A stretch of 64,000 bases of DNA from Candidatus Poseidoniaceae archaeon (GTDB lineage: Archaea; Thermoplasmatota; Poseidoniia; Poseidoniales; Poseidoniaceae), in assembly GCA_949372875.1 (NCBI GenBank), contig CASIAW010000001.1, positions 248,001 through 312,000 on the forward strand, written 5' to 3'. Below, piece after piece: positions 1,801-60,154 of this stretch. Position 1 is the stretch's first letter. Each line of letters begins with the position of its first letter. The translations under genes were made by a program, and so were the position numbers. The notes beneath the pieces were generated by a model that was not told the origin of the DNA, ran no database searches, and was given only the letters and a program-made list of their open reading frames with translations.

Positions 1801-4800
1801 TTACTGCCTATCAAGCCATTGTTGGCCATAATGTTGCCATTGCTCCATAGTCCAACCATCTGGTAATCCAGTCGCTGGCAATGGTGGACCAAGCACCGGT
1901 ATTGGTGCAGGAATTGAAGCCGGCATTGGAAGTGGGAGTGAAGGCAATGGCGTAGGAGGTAAGCCGACTGGAGGTAAACCGGATGGAATGGGCAAAGGTG
2001 TAGGCGGCAAGCCAGATGGTGGCAATCCGAGAGGCACAACTGCAGGGGCTGCCAGTGAAGGCATCTGTAATGATTGAGCCAAAGCAGCCGCTATTTCGTC
2101 TGAAGAAACTTCTCCACTGGCAATTTCATCAACAGCATGCCCAATATCCAGGGCATCATCTCTTCGAGTTCCAAGATGGTCTGGATTCACAAACGCATCT
2201 GGAGCGACGAGTTCCTCTCCCGAATTCGATAATTCTCCACCCTTCTTCATTCGGAGGGCGAGAACGACGACCAGAGAGAGTAAGAGTCCGAGAAGTGGAA
2301 TAGAAACATACAGCGGTAGGAAACTAAACAACCCCTCTGAACCAGTTGCTGAGTCTACAGATGTTTCGATAGCAAGCATCCCATATACTGAACCTTCAAG
2401 ATTCAAGGTTATCGTGGTCATCACACGACCCTTGGCAGTGTCCTCTGATGGTGTTAAATCAATTCGAAGAACAACTTGCTCACCAACAGCGATGGAATCG
2501 ACACGAACTGGAAGACACGTTACCTCCCATGCTGCAGATATATTGCCCTCATCGTCAAGGACATCACTCAAGACATCTCCAGTGAGTGGGATATTTCCAT
2601 CATTACGAATGATAATGTTTTGAGTTACAGTTTCGCCACGTGTGACCAGAATAAATGGTGTAATTGAAGCATCTTCAACTGTAATATTTGCAAATGTCGA
2701 TGCCAAAACAGATACTTGGACTGTGACCGAGTTTTGAATCATACGGCCGTTGTTATATCCGGAAGCAGTTACCACCATCTCGAATGCATTCTCAGCCACT
2801 GGGGCGTTTGCTGGAGGGATAAAACCAAGTCGAATGGTTCGTTCTTCACGAGGTTCGATGTAACTGCTTGGATTTGCAAAACCTACAACCCAACCATCGG
2901 GGGCTAAGCCGTTGCTCCAATTCAAAGTTAATGGAGCATTACCAGTGTTTGTCACATGGAACTCGCCGAATGAAAATTCTGAAGAGATTACAGTCTCAAC
3001 GACTCCCGAAGAAGGAGCATTGAGTTCCATTGAAAGGTCATCTCTGACCTTCAAAACAGTGGTGTTGGAAACAAAGGATTGGGCACTCAGTTCTGTTCGA
3101 ATGACGAAGTTGTTTGTCTCGCCTTCTTCGGCCACGGGTGGTACACCGAGTATGAAATTGACTGTGGTAATTTCACCACCGTCTAATACCAACGAAACCT
3201 TTCGATTGTCAACTTGTTCTTGATACGAGACTTCAATGGGCCAAAGTGGGTTTGAAGGTTGGATAATGACGTCCAAGTCGATTGCAATATTACCTGTATT
3301 CTCGATGGTCAAATTGAGAGAAACTTCTTGACCAGTGTCAACCATTACATTACGGTTAATTGCTGAAGGTCCAATGGGTCCTAAATCATCAAATAAATCA
3401 CTTTCAAAGGATTCTTGAGGCAAAACTTCTACATCGACAGATTGCGTAAAGTTCATTGTCGCATCATTCTGAGAATTGACCCAACAAGTGACCGTATCCG
3501 ATGATCCTGAAACGGGTACTCCGTTTGACACAGGTGGGACAAAGATTCGAATATACATTGGTAGGGATTCTTTGATATTGAGGGGTTCAAACTCCAATGT
3601 TGATGAATTTGAACCGCCCAACATGACTTGCCACCTGTTTTCTGATGTGCAAGAAACCGTATATTGGCCCGGAGTATTTCCTATATTCATCACTGAGATA
3701 ACAAATCCAGTAGAATCGCCTGGAGCTGCAGATAAACCAGTAATCCCAGCAGCGCCAATATTGACAGCATTGACTTCAGGAACGACGATTGTTACTCTTT
3801 GAGTATGCGAGACAGTTGGCTGAGCTTGATAGCGAGCAATGATGTCGACGACAAAGGTTCCAGCACGGGCATATCTTGGTGCAGAGGAGTCTGATAAATC
3901 TGCATACTCATTTTCAAGATGAACGTTGAGCATTTTGTAATCTCCTTCTTCACCGAGACCTTGAACGACATATGGTCCAATTTCAGAGACGGCCTTTGTC
4001 CAGTAGTCTTCAGGCGCCAGTAAGAAATCAGGACGACCAGGTTGTGGCATCTGTACATTGGTTACAGAGAGCGTCACGCTTTGCTGACCCGTACCTTCAT
4101 GCAAAATGTGAATTGGGATGTCAATGCCAGTTTCGTTGAGGACATCGAAGGTTTTGATTGCAGACGTAGCCCTCGCTTCGGGTGTTGTGGGAGCAATACC
4201 ATTTTCATCAAGTGCGACAACTCGAACTCCAAGAGCAGTAACTTCAATGTCTTGGGTCCACACATTGTTGTTTACGCCATTTACGGCATCATTCATTTCA
4301 GCCACTTGATCAAGCGTATCAATACTCAATCGCATGGTGTGTGTTCCAGTTGTTGTGAATTGATGTTGAAGCAAAAAGGAGTCAACAATTCCAGCACCAA
4401 GCCCGGGTCTGTCAGCATCGAAAAGAGTTTGATTTGTCGTTAAATCTTCAAGCGTAACGTGGAATGTCCCGGACGCAAGAGTACCTTGGTTAATCCAGCC
4501 AAGTTGTAAGGTGATGAGGTCGTTTTTCAGAGGCTCTTGAGAGGAAGGGACAATACTGCCATTGTAGGTCGCTAAATCAGATTGCGCATTTGGGGTAGCA
4601 TCAGCAACCATTACCAGTCCAAAAGATTGAGTTGTGCCGCCACGGTGAACCACTTTGACTTGCCATTGTCCTGAAGTTGAGAGGACGCCGGGAGCGACTT
4701 TAATTCGTTCGACATTGTTGAGAGAGTCAGCAGTTCCACCTGTTGTAGAGTATCCAGACGAGAAGTCGTTTCCGAGCCACTCGTTACCTGACGGGTCGAC

Positions 4801-11777: not shown

Positions 11778-14198
11778 ATGCGCAGATGGCTCATTGTGAT
11801 GCTCGTTCTGCTGCATTCAACGGTTTCATTTGCAACGGTTGGGGCAGACCCGACAAGGTTCGATGCAAGAAGCAGTGAATTGGATGTAATCGGTCTCAAC
11901 CAAGTCACACTGCATCAGGGGGAATTTATTGAAGTCTTATTCACCTTACACAATACTGGCGAAAACGATGAAACGTATTCATTTCAACTTGAATCAGGTG
12001 CCAATGGACTTACAGCAACAGGTCTGCCGCATACAAAATTCGTCGAGAGTGGTTATCTTCGCCAAGTCAAATTTAACCTCACTGCCGACTCAAATGCCGG
12101 TTTTGGAACATACAACCTATCGTTGAACTTCAGCGCTGAGAGCGACCCAACGTGGCACCAAATCGAGAGTTTCCAAGCTAAAGTGGCTCCTTATTCCAAC
12201 CTCAACTTTGGCTCGAGTGGTATCTCCTCTTTCATCGTAACCCCAGGCACACGTACCTCTGTTGCCATGAACATCACAAACAATGCCACACTAACTGATG
12301 ATATCATGTTTAATCTCTATTCCCAAACTGGATGGAATTGGGGCTGGACCATGGACAATACTGATGGGATAAATGCGTATGAAACTGTTCAGCCGGATTC
12401 ACTGACCTATGTGTTCCTGTGGATTGATGTCCCAACAATTGTTGACGGTATGCCCCTTGCAAACACTGGACCACGATTCCAACTCAAGGCTGTTTCGAGT
12501 ATTGACGGCGGGATATCCCAATGGTCTTTTGACTTACTTATGAACGACTATTACAATGCGTCAATTGATGACTCAGGTAATGACTTATTAGTAGAACCCG
12601 GAGGAACAGATAGAATTCCAGTGACAGTTCGAAACAATGGAAACACTCCCGCTTACCTCGACATTACATTACAAGCGGTTTATTCAAACGGGTTACCGAT
12701 TGAAAATATTCCAATCGATGACAGAATCATCTGTGACGATTGGACAATCGCTCTTTTTGGCGGTCTCGAAGGAAATACTCTCCAGCCAAATGAATCGAGA
12801 ACTATAGAGGTCGGATTCCAAGCACCGCTTGAATATTCGGGAGAAGTGGATATACGTGTTCGAGTTTTTGCGAGTGGGGCTCTCGTTCGTATGCAGACAA
12901 TCGATGTCGGAGCATCCATCAACTGGCAACGAAGTGGTACCGTTCAAGTTCTCACAGATGAGTGTCAATCCTTGTTGCCTAATGCCACTTGTGGGGCCCA
13001 GATTGCAATTGAAAATACGGGTAATGCCGTTGATACATTTGAATTTGCAGTCACAGAAGTTCCATCTTTTGTTGATGCTCAGCTCTTAGTTTCGACAAAA
13101 GAACTTGGTCCAAACAGTTTAACGGAACTCGACCTGCTTTTGGTGACTGCAAACTCATCTGCCTATGCCTTTGAGCTTGGCGATATTGTTGTAGAAGTTC
13201 GACTTCTCAATACAGACACATTGGTAGGATTGGTGCGAATCCCTGTCAAAATTGCTCCAATAATAAAATGGGTATTTACTGACATCACCGAAGAAATTGA
13301 TAGTCAAGGTCGCCTTTCAATAGCCATGACTTTACGAAATGAAGGCAATACTGCCGATGGTTTACTGGTTCAATTACAATCATCTCATTCAACAGATATG
13401 TCGTTCATACCCCCGTTCATCGCCATCTATGAAGAAGATATAGAATACCCTCGTTCTTTTGAGGTATCTGATATTCCAATTGGCTTTAATTTCACAGTTC
13501 GCTCATGGGTCGATTTGCCTCTCGATCAGCAGAGCAATGGAACTGTGTGGATTAATACGACTGTACGCTCACAATTTGAACCAAGTACTGTTTTTGTTCA
13601 CACAAGTAAAGGTGAATACAAAGGCATTCTTTGGCAAGGAGATGAAATTGAAGAATCGTTTGATTTAGGAGAGGTATTGAACACCGGATGGGAAATTCTC
13701 AAAGGTTGGTTCTTGATGATTTGTGCACTGCTTTTTTCAACAGTCATCATATTCAAATCAATATCTGCTCGTAATCAAAGAAACCTTGAACAACAACAGA
13801 GAGAAGCAATGTATCAAACAAAAGAGCCGGAAAAGGTCGATAATTGGATGGAGAAATTCACCGAAACGAAAGCTCCTGCTCCTGAAGATACGGCCTTGAA
13901 GGTTCGTCCGGAAGATTTCCAAGAAGCATTTCAAAACCGTGCTGGGACATACAAGCCGACAAGTGACCCTGTCAATCCATCATTGACAAAGGCTGCAAAT
14001 ACCGTCCTTGATTACCACAGTTCAAACCAATTACGTTCATCCGCTGATTCTCTGCTGGCTGACATTCAAGTGGGGAATACCTCGAAACCCCATGCTGGAA
14101 ATGCAATCCTAGAGCCCGAGAAGCCCCAAGAAAGTCTTACGCAAAAAAAGGAATCACCTTCGGTACCCCTACCTATCGATGACGAACTTGACATCTAG
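11778..14198 (+). CDS. Membrane-anchored surface protein with repeated beta-sandwich (NEW3/CARDB-like) domains
   Basis: This 806-residue protein has a signal peptide (about 1-23), about 610 residues of extracytoplasmic beta-rich repeats, one transmembrane helix (about 640-661) and a 145-residue charged cytoplasmic tail. The repeats share strand signatures such as LHNTGENDETYSFQL, VRNNGNTPAYLDI and IENTGNAVDTFEF, the hallmark of NEW3/CARDB domains that usually space or present enzymes at the surface. No enzymatic domain is visible. The tail contains a conserved-looking LKVRPEDFQEAFQNR block but lacks the GWTMEQW ending seen in other anchored proteins here. rnhB starts 8 bases downstream, so it probably shares a transcript with rnhB, which is surprising for unrelated functions. 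Confidence 0.8.
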   Translation: MRRWLIVMLVLLHSTVSFATVGADPTRFDARSSELDVIGLNQVTLHQGEFIEVLFTLHNTGENDETYSFQLESGANGLTATGLPHTKFVESGYLRQVKFNLTADSNAGFGTYNLSLNFSAESDPTWHQIESFQAKVAPYSNLNFGSSGISSFIVTPGTRTSVAMNITNNATLTDDIMFNLYSQTGWNWGWTMDNTDGINAYETVQPDSLTYVFLWIDVPTIVDGMPLANTGPRFQLKAVSSIDGGISQWSFDLLMNDYYNASIDDSGNDLLVEPGGTDRIPVTVRNNGNTPAYLDITLQAVYSNGLPIENIPIDDRIICDDWTIALFGGLEGNTLQPNESRTIEVGFQAPLEYSGEVDIRVRVFASGALVRMQTIDVGASINWQRSGTVQVLTDECQSLLPNATCGAQIAIENTGNAVDTFEFAVTEVPSFVDAQLLVSTKELGPNSLTELDLLLVTANSSAYAFELGDIVVEVRLLNTDTLVGLVRIPVKIAPIIKWVFTDITEEIDSQGRLSIAMTLRNEGNTADGLLVQLQSSHSTDMSFIPPFIAIYEEDIEYPRSFEVSDIPIGFNFTVRSWVDLPLDQQSNGTVWINTTVRSQFEPSTVFVHTSKGEYKGILWQGDEIEESFDLGEVLNTGWEILKGWFLMICALLFSTVIIFKSISARNQRNLEQQQREAMYQTKEPEKVDNWMEKFTETKAPAPEDTALKVRPEDFQEAFQNRAGTYKPTSDPVNPSLTKAANTVLDYHSSNQLRSSADSLLADIQVGNTSKPHAGNAILEPEKPQESLTQKKESPSVPLPIDDELDI

Positions 14199-17186: not shown

Positions 17187-19244
17187 TTAGGCAACGATTT
17201 TGATGACCCGATCGCATCCAACACATGCGAAACGAAGTGGTCGCTCCTGACTCGTTACGGGATTCGGCGTACCACAAGCAGGGCAAGGAATGACCGGAGT
17301 TGTGAGCATCGTCGCCTCTTCCGTAAGATTCACACGTGAACGAGGGCTTGTTACCGCAGTGACCCACCATATAAGCACTGTAACAATGACTGCACTTCCA
17401 ACGAAAAGTGGAGGATATGCCAAAATATGAATCAGTGCCACGAATGGAATGAGAATAAGTTCGACATACAGTAACTTTTTCTGGCGGGTTTTTGCAAGGC
17501 GAGAGGCGATGATAAATCCAATGCCAAGGCCACATACCACAAGAAGGAATAATGGAAGGGGGCTGTGGATTGGGGAGTTCGTAGCTGACGCAAGGAACTC
17601 ATATTCATCGTCCTGAGCAATGTTCTCACCTTCCAATTGAATTGATTCACCCCATGGTAAGCGAGTAATACTTAGGCGAACGGAGTCATCAGGATTGAGC
17701 GTTGCCCCTGCAAAAGAGGTAGTAGGGGATGATGAGCCCGATAATGAAAGGGAATAATCTGCCCAAAGCGGTGAAGGTTGGGCGGTGACAAAATTACCAA
17801 GCAATGGAACTCGACTGTTCTTTTCAATAATGATTGTTGTCGAAATAACGAGCGTGACCGGGTGGTTCACTACATTTGGTTCTCCATTGAGATCGACTTT
17901 AATCGACAACGTATCAAATTCTTTAATTTGGTCACCAAGCAAGTCTTTCACTTCTAACCCAAGGCCGACACCGAGGTAATATGAAGCCAAACCTGCACCC
18001 GTAGTGCTGAGCATCTGTCTTTCAAACTCGATCTGTTCAATTGGTTCAATCGTACGGCTTACTCGCTCGTCATCGCCAACATTACCGGCATCAAAGGCTT
18101 TCAGAACCGGTGAAAGTGATGTCGCTTCATCTCCAATGTGGTCCATGCCCCATCGCATCCAGAAGGCCATTTCTCCTCCAATCTCGATTCGCGTTTCACG
18201 TTCAAGAGACAACCCATCTGTTGAACCGCTGGATGATTGAAGAGAGAATGTTCCTGTAACTGCTAACGGGCTTCCGTCGCCATTGGTTTTCAAGGGCTCA
18301 TCTGGAGGGTAATATGTGCCAGTTCCGCCAGATGAATCAAACGTTTCAATCTCAAAAGTTGTCGAACCGGAAAGAGATGTATCGCCCGTTTCAATCAAAA
18401 GACGAGTTTCCACATTCACCGATTCTATCCCGCCTTTCGCCCCATCCCAGGTCCAAGTGACGCGAACGCCGTCCCCAGAGGTAGTCTCTATAGGGTCGCC
18501 ACTCAAAGCAATACCTTCAACTAACATTTCAAGAGATGCAGACTTCGAAAGCATGTCCATACCCCAATTGGATTCAATGACAACTGAAAAATAGACTTCA
18601 GAGCCCTCGACTTCTGGTTCGAGTAAAGTAAGGTCAAGTAGCGGAATAGATGCTTCAATGGTTGAGTCAGCATCTTCAGAACCCCACAAAAATTCTAATT
18701 TTGCATCACCAGTAGGCAAGGAAAATACAACAGTTCGTGCGGTGAGCGATAATTCAATAGCCCCTTGATCCGATATCGAGGTCGTGTCAACAGCGATGTC
18801 AAACGTAAGTGTGCCTCTTCCCTGGGGGAGGAAAGAACTTCCTGGTTCCGTTGAAGCACTGAAGGTTTGACTTCCTATTTTCAATGTTGCAGTAGCGTTC
18901 ATTTGAGCGCTTGCAGCACCGCTTACCTCGTATTGAATAGAAACCTCCCAGGTTTTTGCAGGAATCGTCCCGGCCCACACATTCGGCAAAACCCATTTTC
19001 CAACTGTTTCTTCAGAGGTCACTGCATTTGCAATGGTGGCTGTGGTTGTAGTTTCACCTAAATCTTGGGAAAATGGCGACATGGTGCCAGCCGAAGAAGA
19101 GCCAAGTAAATGGAGCTCCACATCTGCGGAATCACAACAAACGAGGGTGTCTTCTGCCGAAGCATTCCCGACAAAAGAGTCGACAAGAGGCGTCATCAGC
19201 GAAGCGATGAAAATCAGCACAAACAAGAATGGACGTGCCGACAT
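17187..19244 (-). CDS. Surface/membrane protein with C-terminal cytoplasmic zinc ribbon
   Basis: This 685-residue protein has a signal peptide (about 1-30), an extracytoplasmic beta-rich region of about 530 residues, and a cluster of three hydrophobic helices near residues 565-640. It ends with a zinc ribbon whose ligands are Cys654, Cys657, Cys674 and Cys677 (CPACG and CVGC). The fold of the ectodomain is not recognised; repeated strand-rich segments with Thr/Ser/Gly suggest stacked beta-sandwiches. A zinc ribbon behind membrane helices is typical of archaeal membrane proteins of unknown function and may bind a cytoplasmic partner. It sits alone between a convergent CBS gene and a same-strand unknown gene at 19313. 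Confidence 0.75.
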   Translation of the reverse strand: MSARPFLFVLIFIASLMTPLVDSFVGNASAEDTLVCCDSADVELHLLGSSSAGTMSPFSQDLGETTTTATIANAVTSEETVGKWVLPNVWAGTIPAKTWEVSIQYEVSGAASAQMNATATLKIGSQTFSASTEPGSSFLPQGRGTLTFDIAVDTTSISDQGAIELSLTARTVVFSLPTGDAKLEFLWGSEDADSTIEASIPLLDLTLLEPEVEGSEVYFSVVIESNWGMDMLSKSASLEMLVEGIALSGDPIETTSGDGVRVTWTWDGAKGGIESVNVETRLLIETGDTSLSGSTTFEIETFDSSGGTGTYYPPDEPLKTNGDGSPLAVTGTFSLQSSSGSTDGLSLERETRIEIGGEMAFWMRWGMDHIGDEATSLSPVLKAFDAGNVGDDERVSRTIEPIEQIEFERQMLSTTGAGLASYYLGVGLGLEVKDLLGDQIKEFDTLSIKVDLNGEPNVVNHPVTLVISTTIIIEKNSRVPLLGNFVTAQPSPLWADYSLSLSGSSSPTTSFAGATLNPDDSVRLSITRLPWGESIQLEGENIAQDDEYEFLASATNSPIHSPLPLFLLVVCGLGIGFIIASRLAKTRQKKLLYVELILIPFVALIHILAYPPLFVGSAVIVTVLIWWVTAVTSPRSRVNLTEEATMLTTPVIPCPACGTPNPVTSQERPLRFACVGCDRVIKIVA

Positions 19245-26548: not shown

Positions 26549-29308
26549 TCAACGATTCTTGAGGTAGTCTTCACCGTACCATGCCCATTGCTCCATCGTC
26601 CAGCCGGCAGGCAGGCCCTCAGGTGGAAGAGGTGGAGCATTCGCAATCATTGGAGCGATGAATTGAGGCGTCGCCGGTTGAGGCGTCAAATTCAATGCTG
26701 AGCTGCCTCCACGGCGGGTAACAAAGAATGCGCCAACCAAAACGAGAATCAACACTGCTAAACCTGCAAGACCAAACTGCAAAGACATGAAAGAAGATAC
26801 AGATTCAACATTTCGAGATGCATCTTGTGGGTATGCATCGGCTTCATCGGACCAACCGTCACCGTCTGCATCTGGGCATCCAATGCGGTCATCGGTTGAA
26901 GTTCCGGTCACATCAGGGCAATCATCTGAAAGATTGGTTCCCGTCTGGTCAGGATAGCCATCGCCATCATTGTCAGACCAGAAGAGGCTTTCACCAGGGA
27001 AAGCATCGAGGTTATCATCCCAGCCGTCACCATCACTGTCAGGGCAGCCGTAGCGTTCTTGGGAGGAGAGTCCAAACAATCCTGGGCAACTATCTGGTAA
27101 GTTTCCAACTATCGAATCACCATACCCATCCAAATCAGCATCCATGTGTTGTGTTGAATCTTCGGGGAATGCGTCACTTTCGTCAGACCAGCCGTCACCA
27201 TCACTGTCAAGACAGCCGTATGAGTCTTCAAAAGAGGTACCGGCTGTTTCAGGACACGAATCAGGTTGGAATCCATCAACAGAATCTCCGTAACCATCAC
27301 CATCTTGATCGGCATGTTGGCTACTATACGTTGGGAATGCATCTGCACCCAGACCTACCGTCCAGCTAATATCTGGATTTGACCAACCATCACTATCGCT
27401 GTCCAAACAGCCGAATCTGTCTTCGGATGAGGTCCCAGCAACGCTTGGGCATCGATCGCCTTCGAGTCCATTGACGTTATCGCCGAAGCCATCTCCATCA
27501 GTATCGAGCCATTGGGTTGTTTCTGTGGGGAATTCATCAATACTGTCTGCATAACCGTCACCATCGAAGTCCGAACAGCCAAGAACATCGCCTGTATCGC
27601 TCGAGCCTGGGCTTACGGGACACGTATCAACGATGTCCGAAAATCCATCATTATCATCATCAAGGTCTTCACCAACATCTTCACATCCGTCTCGGTCACC
27701 ATCATTTATGAGTGTGGAAAAGAACGAGAGAGGGCTTGTTGGACAGAGATCTTCCTCGACAGAAGACACAGAGCAAGTCCAAAATCCATCTGCGACCAAA
27801 GCATCACAAATTCGGTCGTTATCATCATCATAATCTTCACCAGAATCTTGGCATCCATCAGTATCGTAGTCAGTCGCACTAGAAGATGCCCATCCAAGGT
27901 CACCTCGGCTGCAAGAGTCGAGGTCGTCGAGGAGACCGTCATTATCATCATCAGTGTCTTCTTTGAGGTCTAAACAACCGTCCATATCATGATCGGTGGC
28001 GAGCGACGATATCCAAGAAAGGTTACCAAGAGCACAGTTGTCATCGATATCGAGGATGGAGTCATTGTCATCGTCTTCATCACACACATCGCCGTAGTCG
28101 TCACCGTCATGGTTCGCTTGAGCCGAATTAGCAATGAAGGGGCAGTTATCTACTTGGTCACCGATGCCATCACCATCTTCGTCCGTATACGAGTCGATGA
28201 GCACGACTTCATCTTGACCATTATCAACGTAATAGAGGTCCCCATTGGGACCTATTTCAAGTCCCATAATGGACGTAGCTGAAGTTTGAATTGTATCAAC
28301 TTCCACCCCCCCTTTGCCGTCTGAATTCAAATCAAACGCTACTATTTTTCCGTTACCATTGAGAGAAACAAAGAGTTTGTCACCCTCAAGAGCAATTCCT
28401 GAAGGCCGGTCAAGACCTGATGCAAGAACACCCCATTCTATGCCGGTAATTCTTGAGTATTCTTGCAGTGGTTCGAGTTGGGAGGTGTCGTTCATGATGT
28501 CCTCGGTCTGATAGGTCGAATCATCGGTGTTCACCCAAAGAACCCGATTGGCTCCTGCATCTGCGATGTAAAGAATTCCTGAATTTTTGTCCATGACCAT
28601 ATGACCTGGAATACCGTAGGCGTGTGTAAGGGTTATATCCGAATATCGGCGAACAATAGCGTCAGAATGATCATCTTCTCCAGTGTCGTGGTCTTGTTGG
28701 AAGTCGTATCGAACCAACTCTCCATAATAGCCATCATTGTACCAATAGACATTTGCAGAATCATGAGCGATGCCAACCCCGTAAGGTGATTCATGATTCA
28801 TGTCAATGTGACTTCCAAGAAGCCCATTGCCATTATTTTGATTTTCGACTGCGAAATGGTTGAGTGAGGAAGGCCATAGAGTTGGCCCCATGAATAAATT
28901 TTGTTGAATTTGGCCACAGAATGTGTTCCCAGTTTCTTGAGCCGAGCCCCATTGCCAATCAAATTCAGGATGGTGTGCACCAAATGCGATTGAACTGACT
29001 TCTTCGAGGAAATGATTCCTGTTAGAGTCTTGACGGTTTTGAGAGGTCTGATTCTCCATACCAGTGTTTTCAATGATAGTTATACTATCAGTAGCACGGT
29101 TCGCTATCCAAAGTTCATTGGCACGACCTGGATGAAATTCAAGGTCTCTCGGATCTGAAAGAGCATCTGAGGAATCTGCAATAACCACTTCATTGAAACC
29201 CTCTCCGAATTGAGTGACAACGGTTGCTTCTTTGGATGCTACAGCATGAGATGGAAGTGAAAAAAGCAAGATACCCAAGAGTACGATGCAGACCTGCTTA
29301 TTGACCAT
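26549..29308 (-). CDS. Anchored propeller plus thrombospondin type 3 (calcium) repeat protein with GWTMEQW tail
   Basis: This 919-residue protein begins with a signal peptide (MVNKQVCIVLLGILLFSL). A beta-propeller of NHL-like blades follows (about 35-385; e.g. DPRDLEFHPGRANELWIANR, GIPGHMVMDKNSGILYIADA). Next comes a long run of Asp-rich thrombospondin type 3 repeats (about 385-825) in which DxDxDG-type calcium loops alternate with Cys-containing spacers such as DNCP and GCPDSDGDGW. A single transmembrane helix lies near residue 850. The roughly 55-residue cytoplasmic tail ends in GLPAGWTMEQW. A frame extension to 29425 is not used because the signal peptide begins at 29308. Adhesion or calcium-dependent rigid display is likely. 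Confidence 0.85.
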   Translation of the reverse strand: MVNKQVCIVLLGILLFSLPSHAVASKEATVVTQFGEGFNEVVIADSSDALSDPRDLEFHPGRANELWIANRATDSITIIENTGMENQTSQNRQDSNRNHFLEEVSSIAFGAHHPEFDWQWGSAQETGNTFCGQIQQNLFMGPTLWPSSLNHFAVENQNNGNGLLGSHIDMNHESPYGVGIAHDSANVYWYNDGYYGELVRYDFQQDHDTGEDDHSDAIVRRYSDITLTHAYGIPGHMVMDKNSGILYIADAGANRVLWVNTDDSTYQTEDIMNDTSQLEPLQEYSRITGIEWGVLASGLDRPSGIALEGDKLFVSLNGNGKIVAFDLNSDGKGGVEVDTIQTSATSIMGLEIGPNGDLYYVDNGQDEVVLIDSYTDEDGDGIGDQVDNCPFIANSAQANHDGDDYGDVCDEDDDNDSILDIDDNCALGNLSWISSLATDHDMDGCLDLKEDTDDDNDGLLDDLDSCSRGDLGWASSSATDYDTDGCQDSGEDYDDDNDRICDALVADGFWTCSVSSVEEDLCPTSPLSFFSTLINDGDRDGCEDVGEDLDDDNDGFSDIVDTCPVSPGSSDTGDVLGCSDFDGDGYADSIDEFPTETTQWLDTDGDGFGDNVNGLEGDRCPSVAGTSSEDRFGCLDSDSDGWSNPDISWTVGLGADAFPTYSSQHADQDGDGYGDSVDGFQPDSCPETAGTSFEDSYGCLDSDGDGWSDESDAFPEDSTQHMDADLDGYGDSIVGNLPDSCPGLFGLSSQERYGCPDSDGDGWDDNLDAFPGESLFWSDNDGDGYPDQTGTNLSDDCPDVTGTSTDDRIGCPDADGDGWSDEADAYPQDASRNVESVSSFMSLQFGLAGLAVLILVLVGAFFVTRRGGSSALNLTPQPATPQFIAPMIANAPPLPPEGLPAGWTMEQWAWYGEDYLKNR

Positions 29309-36813: not shown

Positions 36814-39800
36814 TCACTTTTTCATTGCATCGACATATTGCCAACCGAAATGGTCCCACTGGTCTTGAGTCCATCCTTGAGGTAGACCGGTAGGGGGAAG
36901 AGGTGGCGGCGCCTTGGCAGATTTACCAGGGTTAACTGCATTTGAGGTAGGAATTTCTCCAACTGCACTGTCGGTGATATTGTATGTAATGTTTTGAACC
37001 AATGTTGGAGAAGGGGTTGGTTGCGAAACAACAGGCGCTGGAGCAACTTGGGGTTGCGGGAAGACTAAGCCAGCAGGCGGCGGTACAGTCACATCGATCT
37101 CTGGAAGAGTTTTCGCAGCATTGAGCTCCTCTAGGACTTCCTCTGTTTGGTCTTCAGCACCACCTTCAAGTTCGCCTTCACGGATTCTACGATTCATGAC
37201 CAGCATCCACATAGCAAGACTGAGAGAGAGAAGGGCGACAAGGTAGAGGACAATAGCAAAAGTTCCTTCTTGGGCTTGCAAAGCTAGTGCTTCACCGTCA
37301 CGAATTGTTTCTTCTTTGACAAGTAACGGATCCAGTGTTTTACGGTCCATTTCAACTTCATCGACTAAAATTAGCAAACGGAATTCAATACTCTCGCCAG
37401 CAGCGACATTTGCGACTGTTGGAAGTGTCCCCGTTACAGCAGCACCGGCTGTTGCGACCATATCAATTCGGGCAGTATCTTCCCAAAATCCACCTTCAAC
37501 AGCACGTTGTAAGACAAATGCAACATCGCCTTTGCCTCCGAGGTTACGCACTTCGAAAATTAATCCGACATCTTGTTGAGCAATTGGACTTGGGTCATCC
37601 CATGAAAAGGAACTCGTTGGCAAGTCTAAATCGATACTTGGCCCAAGCAGTGCGAGAGACCATGATGCAATCGGTTGTGAAAGAGAGTTGCCGAGTGTGT
37701 TAAACGGGTTGCCTGCCGAGTCTGAACCTGAAACCCAAACATCAACCATGTACGACGGTAGAAGGGTTGTAGAACCAGCATCAGTCAAATCTAAATTACC
37801 TGTCCAGAAGAATTGTTCACCGAACGGTGTCGTATCTGGCAAAGGAACACTTCCCCGGGAGATCTCTGCTTCACCTGCACGAACTCTGTAATGTAGAACT
37901 GCGGGCTCATCAAGGTCAAAGCCATAATCATCAAGCGTCTCAAGCATGACGAGCAAATCTCCACAAGCACCAATCGAGAGTTCGTTTCCTGCGGACACTT
38001 CATTCAGTGAGATTGCTGCAATGGTTGGACGGGAGTTGTCAACTGCCAAACGGACACGTTGAATCGTAGGCGTTTCATCCAATGCTAAACCGGGTAAATC
38101 ATCCAGTCCAAGACGTAAATCAAGATGTCCAGAGGGAACAGATGGAATCAGGAGGTCAAGACTAAATTCTCCATCTGCCCGTGTCGAGGTCTTCCATGTG
38201 TGGTCATAGTCTCCAAAGGTGACATCAAACGCGCCAGGTGGCGCTGGAGTTTCATCTTCGGAAAAGAGAACACGACCGTTGAGACGCAATGCTTGACCCG
38301 CTCCGATGAGCGTTTCAGTGAAATCAGAGTTGTAGTGATTGGTTCCATCTCGAAGTTCAACTGCCCGAATGTGACCTTCCATAGTATCAAATCGGAAATC
38401 ATTGTCGAGACTCCATGCGTCATTTCCGAGACCGGCTGTAGTTTCAAAACACGGGTTTTCCTCCCCAACGTTGCACGGTAAATCTGTGACCAGTATTTTC
38501 GGTGTGATTTGACTCAATCCATCGGTATCGAACATTTCCGGGAATGTCCAAGTGAGTTGGAATCGCGCTAAAATCTTGATAATACTGTTATTGTTTTCAT
38601 CCAAACTGACGCTTGAATAGAGATTGGATACCGCAATATTTGCCGAGCCCGAAGTCATGACTGCTGCAGGGTTACCGTCGGCAGCCTTGGTCAATGAAAT
38701 GAACAAGGAAGTTTCATCATCGTTGAAATCTCCTCCGAGTGCCAATTGGATGTATTGAATGTCCTGCCAACCATTTCGATCTGAGAGAACTATTTGCGCT
38801 GTGTAAGGGATACCGGGATGGAGTGGTGCTTGGTCATCATGTCCTAGAATTGTGGAATTATCAAGGTCCAGTTGCGGTTCAAACTCCACGCGGATACGAT
38901 AAGTTCCCAAATCATTGTCCCAATCTGGAGTGACTTCTCCCGGGATGTATCCACAAGCGATGTTGCTGTCGGGACAGACAGGTCCGCCACCCATAGCAAT
39001 GGCATTATCTTGACCATCTTTACCTGAGACAAAGTAGGAGACTTGTTGGCCATGTTGTAACATAGAATCATCAATGAGCCCATCAAATATGTTTAATCCA
39101 CCAACTTGCGTGTCCGGTGAAGTCAAAACTTTCATGATATATTCATCTGAATTCGGCAGACCGTCGAAATTATAATCGCTGCAGCCAAGTGAGTCACTGG
39201 CTTTACATCCAATCCAGTAATTGAGTGTAACTTGATTGGGGGGGTCGACTGAATCTTGAATGAGAATACTCACTGGTTGACCACCGGGTGCAGGAGGACC
39301 TGCGTGCCTTTCAGTTCCGTCGCCGGGTGTCGAGGAGAGGACAAGTGGAGAATTACCGTCCAACACGAGTCGGATTGTGTTATAGCCAGGGTTTGCAAAT
39401 ACAGAACCGTTTATCATTTCCACAGCTTCAACATAGAAGACCATACCACCAGGTGAAGATTCGAGCGGTGATTGGAAGGTGATGTTATACTCACCGAATG
39501 CGGGGTTCTGTTCTTGAGCCAAGAGAACTGGCTCACCAATCGCGTCACCATCATATGTGACGTTTTGACCAAGGATACGCAGAGAAAATTGCCCAGCTAA
39601 CGGCGTAAGTTGAGAGTTTTGAAAATGAATCCCACCTGTGAATGAGAGATTAAATCCACCGCGAACCCAATCTTGTGAGTAAAGTTCTCTCCCTGTCTCC
39701 TCAAAGACACGAAGGCCGTCGAGTTGGATATCGTTTTCTACGATGATATCTAAGTCTTCAGTTTCCCAAGCGGAAACAGCTTGACCGAGGTCATCTGATA

Positions 39801-55583: not shown

Positions 55584-58500
55584 TCACTGTTCCGGAACGT
55601 AATTTGGGTCTGGGACCCATGTATTTGACTCAGCATCCCAAAGCCAACCCGGATGCTGCGCAGTGAGTGGAACCGCAGCAGCTTGTTGGACAACTACAGG
55701 AGTCGTGGCAACTTGATTTGAAGGAAGAGTCGCTGAATCTTGGCGAGCCTTAGCCCAAGCATACGGATCTTCTGATGCTTGTTCTTCAGCCGCCGTCAAT
55801 TGCTCCTCTTCAAAGTCCTCATACTCAACCTGCAAGAAGAACATACCAGCTCCAAGAAGAACGATAATACCAATAGCAATCATTCCAATTAATCCAAAGT
55901 TGATACTCGAACTTTCATCATCACCAATGCTCAGTTTGAACAATGCGTCGGTATTTTCACCTGGTTGTGAATACACTTGGTCATCCATTTCAAAAATAAT
56001 GTTACGAGCACCCTCAATTCCAGAGAGTTGGCTGCTGGAGATTTCCATCATCCATGTGGCATCTGCATTGACACGAGTTTGGTTGATACGCACACCGCTC
56101 AAACTATCGAAACGTGCTTCAACAAGACTGTTTGGCAGCCCTTGACCACTGAAAACGGCAGAGTTACCCGGCCCTAAGGACCCGGTATCTTCACGGACAA
56201 CTGTAAATGATACTTCGACCACAACGACATTCACTTTGTAAGAATAAGCAACTGAACCATAGGAATCAGCTGCTTCGAATATCAAGCCAACCAGTGACCA
56301 CTCGGAAACATCGTTGGAAAGTCCTGTGACAAAAGCAGGGTCGTAACTCACGATACCGCTCGTGCTGAATGTGAGATAGTTTCCATACTCATCATCGTCC
56401 AAGTTTTGCGGGTCGTCATAGACGTCGAAAACCAATCCATTGGTAACGCTCGCTGTTGGGCCATCTGCATCGGAGAAGTGATTCATTAGATTAATGTCAA
56501 TACCACCATTACATCGATCCTGCTTCGTAGGATTCGAATCACAGAACAGTGTCATGGTTCCAACCCATCCAGTTGAATTGAATTCAGGAACGATATTATC
56601 GGCGTCACTTGGGTTATCAATTCTAATCTGAACACGTTCTTCAATTGAGTAACTGTTTCCATCCCAAGCCTTGACGACCACGACATATTGCTGGTCGTGA
56701 ATAAGGTCCGAGGTGTCCCAGGTTGTCGACCATGCACCATTTTGAGCAAAGTTCGTAACTGGATCTGGTCCGTTGTTAATTTCCACATAACTCACAGTAT
56801 CAAAAATTGAGATTTCAACCCGTGTTACAAGCCCATCATTATCCAGTGCCACACCTTGAATCAGTTGTGACTCACTCGCTCGAAGAATATCATTCGGCAG
56901 TGGTTCACTGAGTTGGACAAAGGGTATTGAATTATCAGTATTGATGTTCAGTGAACGGCTTTCATAGGTACAATCTGCCCATCCAGTCTTAATGTTACAG
57001 AAATCACTGTCAGACGCCCAGATACGGAAATCATACTGCCCTGTTTCAAGATCTTGGAAGAGCCACTCGAATGCCCAAGCAGTAGAGCCTGCAACATCCA
57101 AGGTGATGGTATATCCGTTCGGTCCGTTAATATCAAACCAAATCGCAGTGATATCACTGCCCCATGTCCCTGAGTAAGGGTCACTCGCAGTTCCAGTGAA
57201 CGTAACCTTGCCGTTTTCGTGAGAACTTCCGTCATTTGGAGAGTCAACTAAGATCGTCGGGGCGACGAGATTAAGTTTGTATTTTCTTACTTCAACCGGG
57301 GAATAATCTAATCCGTCGTAAGAGCGAACACGGAATGTAACGTCGCCTTCACCTTCTGGATGTGCAGACATTTCCCAGTCAAAACTCCATGATTTGAACG
57401 GGTGGTTTGATTTTGTAATTTCTCCACCTGCGCCAGATGTATCAATTGCTGAGTACCAATCTGTGGAACCCGGTGGCTGAACCTCAACACGCTTGATAAG
57501 ACCAAACTGGTTCTGGTAAGCGACATAATCCAATGGATAGGGTCCGCTGATTCCGTCCCATGAGGAACCAGACAATTCGACAGTAGTAGCGAATGAAAAG
57601 CCATCGTTTTGAGTAACTGTTACACTCGGTTTCAAATTATCAAGATTGATGACATCGTCGATTGAACCACTGAGAACGAAATCAAAGTCTTTCTGTCCTT
57701 TGCCGAACATGTATGCTTCAACCGAATAGAATGGGAGTTCTCGTCCGTTGGTGCAGTCACTGTCCTCGGAGTCCACTTTCGTATCACCATCGTTATCATA
57801 CCCGTCAGCACATGAGTCTTCATCTATGAAAACAGCATTCCCTTGTGAATCGGTTACGCCAGGTATTTGCACATTGGTTTCACCAACCAGATGGTTCCAG
57901 TTGCGATCAAGGAGGAAATCAGATGGTAGAGAGACTTCTGGTGTAAATCCAAAGGCATCGGTCGTCATGGTGTAAAGTGGAAGTCCTGTGGCATCTCGAA
58001 TGACAACTGTTGCTCCAGCAACGTTGCTGTTCTTGGCCTTGACTTGATAGCGAACTAGTTCTCCTTCGCGAACTTGACTTCCCCAAGCAGAGTTTTGGTT
58101 TTGAACATGAATTTTAGAGGAATCAAAGTTCTGTAAATTCGCATAAGAGAAGACGGTCGAATTCTCAACTACTTCAAGAGCCAGTGGCATGTCGAAAGGA
58201 GGCATTGCAGCTGTCGAGGGCACTAAGAGGCATTCTTCTACAACATATGGGCATTCTGGGCCGAGCCATCGAAGTTGAACTGGATACAATTCATTTCCGC
58301 CGGCATCTGGGATGTATTCTGATTGAACAGTTACACGTGATTCTGTAATGTTGTAAACCTGGGATGCATTGGAATAAGAATTACCAGAGAAGTAACCAAT
58401 TGAACCGTATTTGCTACCATAGTTGTCGTCAAACATGCTGATGTTTGCAGCAAACCCAGAAACTTCCATTGTGTTGCGCTGAGCGTTAACAATACTGCCT

Positions 58501-59957
58501 TTGATTCGCATTCCATCACCGCCATTATTTGTCACGGTGTTGTCATACAGAGTTGCCGATGACATGAACACGTGGATGGCAGGACAAGGAAAGTCGCCCC
58601 CATACATCTGTGAGTTGCATGTACCCGTATTGTTCGAAATCTGATTGTTTGCAAGATACAAGCGTGCAGCAGTTGGTGTAGGGACGTTCCAACCTTGGTC
58701 ATTGAAGTGATACTCTCCAATCAAAACTGCTTCTTTAGCAGTGTCTTGGATGGTATTGTTTTGAGCGACCACATCAGATGTTCCGTAAATCCACAACCCA
58801 TTCCAACCACCAATAGGACCGATAATATTGTTGTTTGCAGTTACTATCGAAGAGCGAATTCCAAATCCGGAACCTTCTGCAGCACCAGAAATTGTGTTTC
58901 TGTTTGCGTCAACAATTGCACCATCATAGGCAGTGATTCCAGAACCATCAGCCGTTGTAATGATGTTATCGTTCAGAATTAATGTGTGATTAATGGTTCC
59001 TGTAACTTTGTGAGAGTTCGTGTCAATACCACTGCATTTGACATTGATGGTTGAGTTTGTCAATGAGCCAGAACTCTGTTTCAAGAACAAACCGTAAGCA
59101 TTGTCTTTGATGTCAAGGTTCGATAAATCAACATACGAACTCTCGACATATATGAGGCTGCGTCCACCGCCTTGTTGGCCACAGTCGGCTTCCGTATTAC
59201 CGGTAAACTCGGAATTAAGAATTCTCATCGTCCCCAAAATACCAGCACCTGCGCCGTATGCACGAACTGCTGCTGCATCGTATCCATTACCATCAATTCC
59301 GATGGTGAAAGTTGAGTCATCAATTGTTGGCGATGCTAAGTCAAGCGCAATAATGTTTGATGTGTTGATATCTTGGAATGAGAGTCCTGTTGCTGTGGTC
59401 GAAGAACCATCGAATACCAAAACACCGTATTGCTTACCGCTTACTTGGTTTGTATCAAAAGGAACACCATATGCATTTTCAAAATGAGCATATTTGATTG
59501 AAGTAATTGCTTGGTCAATGGTTGAGCGAATTACCATTCCGGAGCCGCATGCTGTATCTGTGTTGTAGTTTGGATCGTTGCTGTTGTTCGAATAGCATCG
59601 GCCTTGAATCGTGTAGTCAGTGGGTGTAGACCAAACAAAGCGTGCTTGATTACTAGAAGAACCGGCACTTGCGCCACAAGAAGCGTCGCCAATACAGATT
59701 GCCCCCTCAACATCGATGAAGGTGCCAAATGGAATGTTAACAGTCGTCCCTGCATTGACGATGAGTTTTGCACCCTCTGCAACCCTGACATCCCCTTCAA
59801 GGTTCATCGTACCTGTCCAAGTTTCTTCACCAGAAATAATTCCAGTCTTCGTTTCGTTTACGGCAGATACAGTTGGTAACGTTATCAATCCAGTGAGGAC
59901 TGAAAGCAGCAAGAGTGCAACCAAGGATATGCTTTTGTGTGTTGTTCTGTTCTTCAT
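55584..59957 (-). CDS. Anchored beta-helix surface protein
   Basis: This 1457-residue protein begins with a signal peptide (MKNRTTHKSISLVALLLLSV). A right-handed parallel beta-helix (about 90-520) follows, with repeated short strands such as IINVKCSG-like and NNQISNNTGT turns. Ig-like and cadherin-like beta domains with YDxxGDxx and DxDNDGDT loops come next. A transmembrane helix (LIGMIAIGIIVLLGAGMFFL) is followed by an acidic tail that ends in HPGWLWDAESNTWVPDP. The tail is a Trp-rich ending but only partly resembles GWTMEQW. The frame extends upstream to 60119, but the signal peptide starts at 59957. Role: surface structure or polysaccharide-type ligand binding. Confidence 0.82.
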   Translation of the reverse strand: MKNRTTHKSISLVALLLLSVLTGLITLPTVSAVNETKTGIISGEETWTGTMNLEGDVRVAEGAKLIVNAGTTVNIPFGTFIDVEGAICIGDASCGASAGSSSNQARFVWSTPTDYTIQGRCYSNNSNDPNYNTDTACGSGMVIRSTIDQAITSIKYAHFENAYGVPFDTNQVSGKQYGVLVFDGSSTTATGLSFQDINTSNIIALDLASPTIDDSTFTIGIDGNGYDAAAVRAYGAGAGILGTMRILNSEFTGNTEADCGQQGGGRSLIYVESSYVDLSNLDIKDNAYGLFLKQSSGSLTNSTINVKCSGIDTNSHKVTGTINHTLILNDNIITTADGSGITAYDGAIVDANRNTISGAAEGSGFGIRSSIVTANNNIIGPIGGWNGLWIYGTSDVVAQNNTIQDTAKEAVLIGEYHFNDQGWNVPTPTAARLYLANNQISNNTGTCNSQMYGGDFPCPAIHVFMSSATLYDNTVTNNGGDGMRIKGSIVNAQRNTMEVSGFAANISMFDDNYGSKYGSIGYFSGNSYSNASQVYNITESRVTVQSEYIPDAGGNELYPVQLRWLGPECPYVVEECLLVPSTAAMPPFDMPLALEVVENSTVFSYANLQNFDSSKIHVQNQNSAWGSQVREGELVRYQVKAKNSNVAGATVVIRDATGLPLYTMTTDAFGFTPEVSLPSDFLLDRNWNHLVGETNVQIPGVTDSQGNAVFIDEDSCADGYDNDGDTKVDSEDSDCTNGRELPFYSVEAYMFGKGQKDFDFVLSGSIDDVINLDNLKPSVTVTQNDGFSFATTVELSGSSWDGISGPYPLDYVAYQNQFGLIKRVEVQPPGSTDWYSAIDTSGAGGEITKSNHPFKSWSFDWEMSAHPEGEGDVTFRVRSYDGLDYSPVEVRKYKLNLVAPTILVDSPNDGSSHENGKVTFTGTASDPYSGTWGSDITAIWFDINGPNGYTITLDVAGSTAWAFEWLFQDLETGQYDFRIWASDSDFCNIKTGWADCTYESRSLNINTDNSIPFVQLSEPLPNDILRASESQLIQGVALDNDGLVTRVEISIFDTVSYVEINNGPDPVTNFAQNGAWSTTWDTSDLIHDQQYVVVVKAWDGNSYSIEERVQIRIDNPSDADNIVPEFNSTGWVGTMTLFCDSNPTKQDRCNGGIDINLMNHFSDADGPTASVTNGLVFDVYDDPQNLDDDEYGNYLTFSTSGIVSYDPAFVTGLSNDVSEWSLVGLIFEAADSYGSVAYSYKVNVVVVEVSFTVVREDTGSLGPGNSAVFSGQGLPNSLVEARFDSLSGVRINQTRVNADATWMMEISSSQLSGIEGARNIIFEMDDQVYSQPGENTDALFKLSIGDDESSSINFGLIGMIAIGIIVLLGAGMFFLQVEYEDFEEEQLTAAEEQASEDPYAWAKARQDSATLPSNQVATTPVVVQQAAAVPLTAQHPGWLWDAESNTWVPDPNYVPEQ

Positions 59958-60154
59958 AATAGACACGCTCTTATTTTCCCTAGTGAACCCTCGAATATAA
60001 TACTGCGCCTCAGTTGCCCGCTCAAGAATATCAAAGTCGAGTAAGAATATCACTTTAATTGGCATAGATGTATCATCAACGAGTAGAAGTATCACTTTTG
60101 ACCCGGCAAATGTGAACATAAATCAAACGAAGTGACCCTTTTGAAGGGGTTTCG
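59958..60154. other. Intergenic region after the second subtilase
   Basis: These 197 bases between two minus-strand genes hold no convincing gene. At 60135-60150 an imperfect hairpin (ACCC/GGGT with AT pairs inside) starts 5 bases past the subtilase stop. The string ACCCTTTTGAA in it also occurs at 6745, upstream of the large subtilase. Confidence 0.3.

Follow-up and report, generated by a model that had tools for sequence, protein, structure and literature searches.

What places one and the same short peptide at the C-termini of surface proteins as different as a subtilase, a TSP3-repeat protein and a giant protein without any Pfam match? Marine Group II archaea are described as outnumbering all other planktonic archaea in ocean surface waters and as having no representative in culture, and the same account ascribes to the Poseidoniales a proteolytic lifestyle, signs of adhesion and widespread thrombospondin and flotillin genes (PMC6461757). 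The three proteins are encoded in a 64-kb window, by which we mean the whole stretch of DNA that was analysed (G000:C1:248001-312000), in a Poseidoniales (Marine Group II) genome of 2.16 Mb and 13 contigs.

One tail on three anchored proteins of the window

The initial annotation had reported that three anchored surface proteins share one ending, and reading the translations confirmed it. All three are encoded on the minus strand; the subtilase protein ends in GLPDGWTMEQWQHYGQQWLDRQ (codons 1804-1869), the TSP3 protein in GLPAGWTMEQWAWYGEDYLKNR (26552-26617) and the giant protein in GLPQGWTQDQWDHFGWQYVDAMKK (36817-36888), and in each of them one hydrophobic helix is followed by a linker and then by the tail (Table 1). 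Helices were assigned here and throughout by a Kyte-Doolittle window, not by a trained predictor. At least three other anchored proteins of the window, at 11778-14198, 55584-60119 and 61462-63999, lack the tail. A further protein, at 17187-19244 (-), has a pair of C-terminal helices and ends in a Cys-rich region resembling a zinc ribbon.

Table 1. Tail-bearing proteins of the window and their C-terminal features
Feature	Position	Strand	Basis or remark
Tail module of subtilase protein, PPLPATGLPDGWTMEQWQHYGQQWLDRQ	1804..1887	-	up to stop codon 1801-1803
Cytoplasmic Pro/Leu-rich linker of subtilase protein, ~123 aa (predicted side)	1888..2256	-	
C-terminal transmembrane helix of subtilase protein, residues 1472-1490, RMKK shortly after	2257..2313	-	Kyte-Doolittle window
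Secreted, anchored subtilase protein, 1641 aa	1801..6726	-	Pfam Peptidase_S8
Tail module of TSP3 protein, PPLPPEGLPAGWTMEQWAWYGEDYLKNR	26552..26635	-	
C-terminal transmembrane helix of TSP3 protein	26720..26776	-	Kyte-Doolittle window
Secreted, anchored TSP3-repeat protein, NHL match below cut-off	26549..29308	-	Pfam
Tail module of giant protein, PPLPPTGLPQGWTQDQWDHFGWQYVDAMKK	36817..36906	-	
C-terminal transmembrane helix of giant protein	37198..37254	-	Kyte-Doolittle window
Secreted, anchored giant protein, 1830 aa	36814..42306	-	no Pfam match at E up to 1

Tails and carrier proteins in the genome

A protein query with one tail matched 12 places in the genome, 11 of them at E 1.1e-16 to 9.0e-6 and one at 0.16, and a DNA pattern for GLPxGWT matched 12 sites against none for the reversed control. 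One of the pattern sites, C1:237822, lies 491 residues before the stop inside another protein and was taken as a chance match. The recurrence of the tail in this genome is far beyond chance. All 11 tails terminate long proteins (open frames of 393-1837 residues), and all 11 carriers have a signal-like hydrophobic stretch close to the N-terminus as well as a C-terminal helix, from which the tail is separated by a linker of 30-127 residues; the second protein of locus L023 has an additional, third hydrophobic window between the two terminal ones. The weak twelfth match of the protein query holds a tandem and more divergent form of the motif, PSGWSDEQYRLWLEGEMPDGWNLVQW, which ends another anchored protein and is found also in the single-contig genome G073. 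Such divergent tandem motifs were seen at L028 (G000:C5:93565) and L185, where they terminate proteins whose open frames measure about 1760-1775 aa. Among 174 distinct DNA copies, seven motif positions were examined and each uses a spread of synonymous codons, so that it is the peptide and not the DNA that is under selection.

The Pfam matches of the carriers in this genome comprise subtilase, TSP3, CARDB, NEW3, PKD and arylsulfotransferase, with a cadherin-like domain just at the cut-off, an NHL hint below it and a propeller-like stretch far below it; Pfam gave nothing for the giant window protein or the L026 protein, and only an Ig-like hint below the cut-off for the L024 protein. The L026 protein (L026:4862-6043, +) is the smallest carrier, with 393 aa, and its ectodomain contains CGGACH, a possible haem-binding site. 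The tail protein of L024 lies near genes for a Cpn60_TCP1 thermosome, a flavodoxin/ferredoxin and a CCG-domain protein, in an order conserved in this and 34 others of 89 tail-gene stretches.

The 11 carriers form 55 pairs, among which one consists of adjacent full-length paralogues (33.6% over 1055 aa), one shares a TSP3 region, two have weakly similar ectodomains (E 1e-4) and two have similar linkers (E 1.7e-8 and 2e-7), while the remaining pairs show no similarity at E 0.01. Tail identity is nevertheless 46-79% across all 55. By sequence comparison the ectodomains are mostly unrelated, and 150 ectodomains from the wider set cluster into ten groups, one of which is the divergent tandem protein alone. 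Since so few carrier pairs are similar, recent duplication, which the initial annotation had named as a finding that would refute its reading, does not account for the tails. Given the similarity of two linker pairs, linker and tail may in some cases have spread jointly. Gene conversion between tails was also considered and left no sign, because between-family tail identity was the same within a genome (0.636) and across two genomes (0.636; 10 tails each).

Anatomy of the motif and further elements of the tails

From 158 tails we obtained the consensus P-[LIV]-P-x-x-G-L-P-x-G-W-[TS]-x-[ED]-Q-W-x-[HYW]-[YF]-G-x-x-[WY]-[LIV], in which the second P, G, L, P, G, W, Q, W and the last G are without exception, several of these positions being part of the search patterns. 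The ending had been put at roughly 20 residues, and such a shared ending does exist, with a conserved part that reaches further towards the N-terminus, to P-[LIV]-P, 4-6 residues ahead of the L of GLP. A linker likewise precedes the tail as described; its Pro-richness does not hold for all proteins, and Pro/Ala-enriched, with a median of 27% P+A, is the better description. The motif stands 25-245 residues (median 75) after the helix and a median of 24 residues before the stop, with about 30 further residues after it in one subfamily.

The AlphaFold prediction made with 57 aligned tails places a helix at residues 33-46 of 47, with block mean pLDDT of 85-89 from residue 21 on, the proline segment included, and a pTM of 0.45. 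None of the 11 tails of the genome matched a Pfam model at E up to 10, WW, GYF and DUF2510 models being among those covered, and the same tails, cut to 26 residues, matched nothing in NCBIfam at E up to 10, a search in which such short queries have little power. Sequence searches of the PDB with the tails returned chance-level matches only (best E 0.74), and a fold search with the tail model returned 0 matches. The predicted model, of modest pTM and without a PDB match, makes the module at most a candidate for a fold of its own.

Further conserved elements accompany the tails. The linker motif LPxxDxVANSMYGGxxxIFxQP is present, by a loose pattern, in 24 of 44 proteins of ectodomain cluster 0 and in 12 of 18 of cluster 3. 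Seven genomes of the order were searched for the VANSMYGG type, and each has one copy, on an L022-type protein in three f1 genomes and on an L024-type protein in four f2 genomes (assigned from the length and location of the open frame); none was found in two genomes of a third family. A VANSALGG form persists in four proteins that lack the tail, the motif being carried by the linkers of L022 and L232-L254. In one subfamily (L008, L047, L175 and others) the tail continues to an acidic ending such as LLDDLDL. The anchored window protein at 11778-14198 (+) has a tail that ends in VPLPIDDELDI and resembles this LLDDLDL ending. The window protein at 55584-60119 (-), with a beta-helix and Big_7 ectodomain, has a different Trp-rich tail, HPGWLWDAESNTWVPDPNYVPEQ; this tail was considered as a second genome-wide class and dropped, as the genome holds only this copy.

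Membrane side of the motif

The charges around the C-terminal helix point to the side on which the tail lies. Within 15 residues there are on average 2.7 K/R after the helix against 0.34 before it, and among 152 proteins the count is higher after the helix in 139, equal in 11 and lower in 2. The cytoplasmic orientation that had been proposed for the tail is thus supported by prediction, through a positive-inside pattern in 139 of 152 proteins, and from hydropathy, charge and domain content we infer that the tail faces the cytoplasm. The expectation that the motif always follows one helix held for 153 of 159 distinct hits; three of the others are truncated at a gap or contig end, and the last three are type II proteins, of opposite topology. 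Random cytosolic proteins, which would have spoken against a surface-protein signal, do not appear among the 159, as none of them is plainly cytosolic.

In the three type II proteins (L151, L153 and L158) the motif is found 138-153 residues into the open frame, ahead of the most hydrophobic segment, in proteins with a SAP-like N-terminal region (PF02037, E 1.1e-8 in L151) and without a hydrophobic N-terminus, so that the N-terminal part should be cytoplasmic. The ectodomain of this SAP protein was matched in at least 65 of 69 genomes, the other four having, among the matches listed, tail or partial matches only. Out of 30 listed loci, the motif is present in two (L193 and L194, both of genus g8; the L193 protein is the L151 protein, at 100% identity) and absent from 27, including L196 of the same genus, and the locus L195, also of g8, is interrupted by a contig end. 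In these few genomes the motif is therefore gained or kept in few related species on the cytoplasmic side of an oppositely oriented protein. Judged by predicted topology in these few related genomes, it is the membrane side that is conserved and not the chain end, and the motif in a SAP protein of reversed topology is the best single argument that the side, and not the C-terminus, matters. Its place in the cytoplasmic N-terminal part of such a protein also argues that it is a functional module.

The SAP-domain membrane protein itself (L223:2550-4766 (-), L193-L222) is common across the order and carries acidic EAEV/EAEI-like repeats in its cytoplasmic linker. A role as a DNA-to-membrane tether is possible.

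Conservation within families and loss of the tail

Identity was measured within eight families and is 0.70-0.80 in the motif, compared with 0.12-0.47 in the linker, 0.14-0.58 in the helix and 0.30-0.54 in the ectodomain, so that no other region is as well conserved as the tail in any of the eight; the motif values are inflated, because the tails used for consensus, charge, identity, distance from the helix, codon choice and the gene-conversion comparison were gathered by the motif and partly by best score. A motif-independent test was therefore made with the L024 ectodomain alone as the query in 30 chosen genomes of the 81 of the order (24 of f2 and 6 of f1). An orthologue was found in 29 of them (none in G304), with the C-terminus visible in 28 and cut off in L227. 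The tail was recognised by pattern in 22 of these 28 and by eye as a GWD variant in two (L235 and L244), and is absent from four (L249, L252, L253 and L254), which represent all the chosen genomes of genus g2. The four g2 orthologues stop directly after the proline-rich linker with the rest of the protein conserved, which indicates that the tail was lost as a unit. Such a clean loss from a conserved protein, in four genomes of one genus, is a second argument that the tail is a functional module.

Distribution of the tail

The tail is present in all 59 genomes of a search among relatives, the window's own included. At E 0.001 it was found in all 81 members of the order among 292 genomes of the phylum. 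None of the 6 genomes from a third family within the class had it, nor did any of the other 205, a contrast that covers this phylum sample only. The 42 genomes of the window's own family have 5-12 copies each and the 39 of the second family (f2) have 1-7; tails in the 81 genomes were tallied by search, with the matches read for part of them, and the tallies may include near-identical species from two collections. Genus g2 has only 1-2 tails per genome, the single tail of two genomes being on an L022-type protein and two more genomes having the subtilase tail as well. A search of the 6 genomes of the class's other family for an L022 orthologue, run without a positive control, returned none. Among 516 confirmed loci from a genome collection, the 80 listed carry titles that name Poseidoniales, Poseidonia, Thalassarchaeaceae, Marine Group II or unspecified Euryarchaeota/Thermoplasmatota. 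A use of the tail by viruses was considered as well; there were 15 pattern matches and two relatives, both of which lie inside one protein (814 aa, and a 486-aa fragment), not at its end, and were judged to be chance.

A candidate docking module and its alternatives

The same inner tag on many unrelated surface proteins suggests that a partner inside the cell, common to all of them, keeps them in place or arranges them. We consider it rather likely that the tail is a docking mini-module for one common cytoplasmic partner, a reading in which both the binding of a protein and the sharing of that partner are deduced from near-invariant aromatics and glycines, acidic character, a loose linker, the inner side and unrelated carriers. 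The loose, fast-evolving linker of about 25-245 residues would keep the module away from the membrane. The module would join a proline-containing segment, PΦPxxGLPxG, to a downstream amphipathic helix, W[TS]x[ED]QWx[HY]YGxx[WY]Φ, with its conserved Trp, Tyr and Gly on one face, and one order-conserved cytoplasmic protein or scaffold would bind it. About ten kinds of unrelated surface proteins, among them the subtilase, TSP3 proteins, PKD/CARDB adhesin-like and arylsulfotransferase-like proteins, could thereby be brought to one place or complex.

The gene neighbourhood did not point to such a partner: no family recurs between tail families among the 45 most widespread that were listed (479 neighbour ORFs in 89 stretches), and for each of the 45 the loci with a cluster-assigned carrier all come from one cluster. 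Because every sampled genome of the order has the tail, presence and absence within the order cannot reveal the partner either. Eukaryotic GYF domains bind proline-rich receptor tails, and a GYF_2 adaptor was considered as the partner and set aside, with matches in 0 of 81 order genomes and 3 of 292 in the phylum sample; 14 control genomes also had none, and one phylum genome over the cut-off (G079) is the only sign of the sensitivity of that search. The 1-2 tails per genome in g2 imply that a partner need not gather many proteins.

The main rival to docking is self-association, in which the proline segment and the helix pack together or with other tails and cluster the surface proteins without a separate partner, as might be expected from mini-folds like Trp-cage or pancreatic-polypeptide-type folds. 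Both elements are predicted at pLDDT 85-89, aromatics and Gly are conserved and prolines invariant, and one family has 5-12 copies per sampled genome, all of which would suit such packing. We nonetheless regard it as unlikely, given the pTM of 0.45, the lack of a structural match and two g2 genomes with one tail-bearing gene, though a single kind of tail could still associate with itself.

A signal for turnover or quality control, read by a cytoplasmic protease or chaperone that controls the level or insertion of long exported proteins, would agree with the mostly long, exported carriers and with a motif mostly close to the C-terminus (median 24 residues to the stop). The roughly 30 residues after the motif in one subfamily and its N-terminal place in the SAP protein show that a free C-terminus is not needed, and other anchored window proteins do without the tail, which makes this account quite improbable. 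Less probable still, to the point of being very doubtful, is an aromatic helix that folds back on the inner face of the membrane. The predicted helix is amphipathic and rich in Trp and Tyr, as an interface helix would be; its mean hydrophobicity is however about zero, the net charge of the 26-residue module averages -2.8 and is above zero in none of 158 tails, the distance to the membrane varies over 25-245 residues, and the invariance of its residues would seem to go beyond the needs of lipid binding.

A CTERM-type processing or sorting signal, recognised by a membrane transpeptidase (sortase, archaeosortase or rhombosortase), would equally give several carriers per genome with signal-like N-termini and a common C-terminal tag, and we give it hardly any credence because the motif lies 25-245 residues beyond the helix on its basic side instead of just before it, occurs also in an N-terminal cytoplasmic region, and has no NCBIfam match. 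That the tails are leftovers of duplication, homologous without common function, finds an echo in the adjacent paralogues, the TSP3 pair, two weak ectodomain pairs and two linker pairs, and is the least credible account of all in view of the other pairs of 55 without similarity at E 0.01, eight families in which the tail is most conserved, the reversed-topology carrier and the clean loss. On surface enzymes and adhesin-like proteins alike, the tag would give a handle on surface organisation from inside the archaeal cell, and it could serve as bait for finding the partner.

Comparison with known systems

To our knowledge, no comparable cytoplasmic tail code has been described in archaea. Searches of the literature with motif strings and for Poseidoniales or Marine Group II surface proteins and archaeosortase signals found no description of the tail, and the word 'motif' is absent from the main text of PMC6864105.

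Short C-terminal tags on unrelated exported proteins of one lineage are a feature that the tail shares with PGF-CTERM, LPXTG, GlyGly-CTERM and MYXO-CTERM. In CTERM signals the signature immediately precedes the helix, after which comes a basic cytoplasmic cluster (PMC11980579). The Poseidoniales tail lies far past the helix, on the inner side, with N-terminal cytoplasmic placement possible as well. The motif comes 25-245 residues after the helix on its basic side, not immediately before it on the outside, and the chain does not end in a short basic cluster, since a linker and an acidic tail follow the basic residues. With two defining sortase-type features failing, the distinction from archaeosortase signals drawn in the initial annotation stands.

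DUF2510-like elements are short Trp-rich segments of actinobacterial membrane proteins and are alike in being short, Trp-rich, soluble elements in many membrane proteins of one lineage; the pattern of the tail is different and no Pfam model matches it.

The receptor and cargo tails of eukaryotes, with motifs such as NPxY, the acidic dileucine and the proline-rich CD2 tail bound by a GYF domain, would offer an analogy, for they work as peptides on flexible cytoplasmic tails of unrelated single-pass proteins that are read by a common adaptor. The Poseidoniales tail is predicted to lie on the cytoplasmic side of single-pass proteins (139 of 152, and the SAP protein), and its carriers are otherwise unrelated, as seen in the ten ectodomain clusters from 150 proteins. 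It differs from the eukaryotic motifs in its length of about 25 residues, without sequence relation seen and without GYF_2 in the order. It is possible, though we hold it somewhat short of probable, that the Poseidoniales have an archaeal tail-adaptor system, in which one order-specific scaffold would read the 25-residue module and recruit digestive and adhesive surface proteins much as eukaryotic adaptors do, with VANSMYGGxxxIF, LLDDLDL and PGWLWDxxxNxWVPDP as further words of the code.
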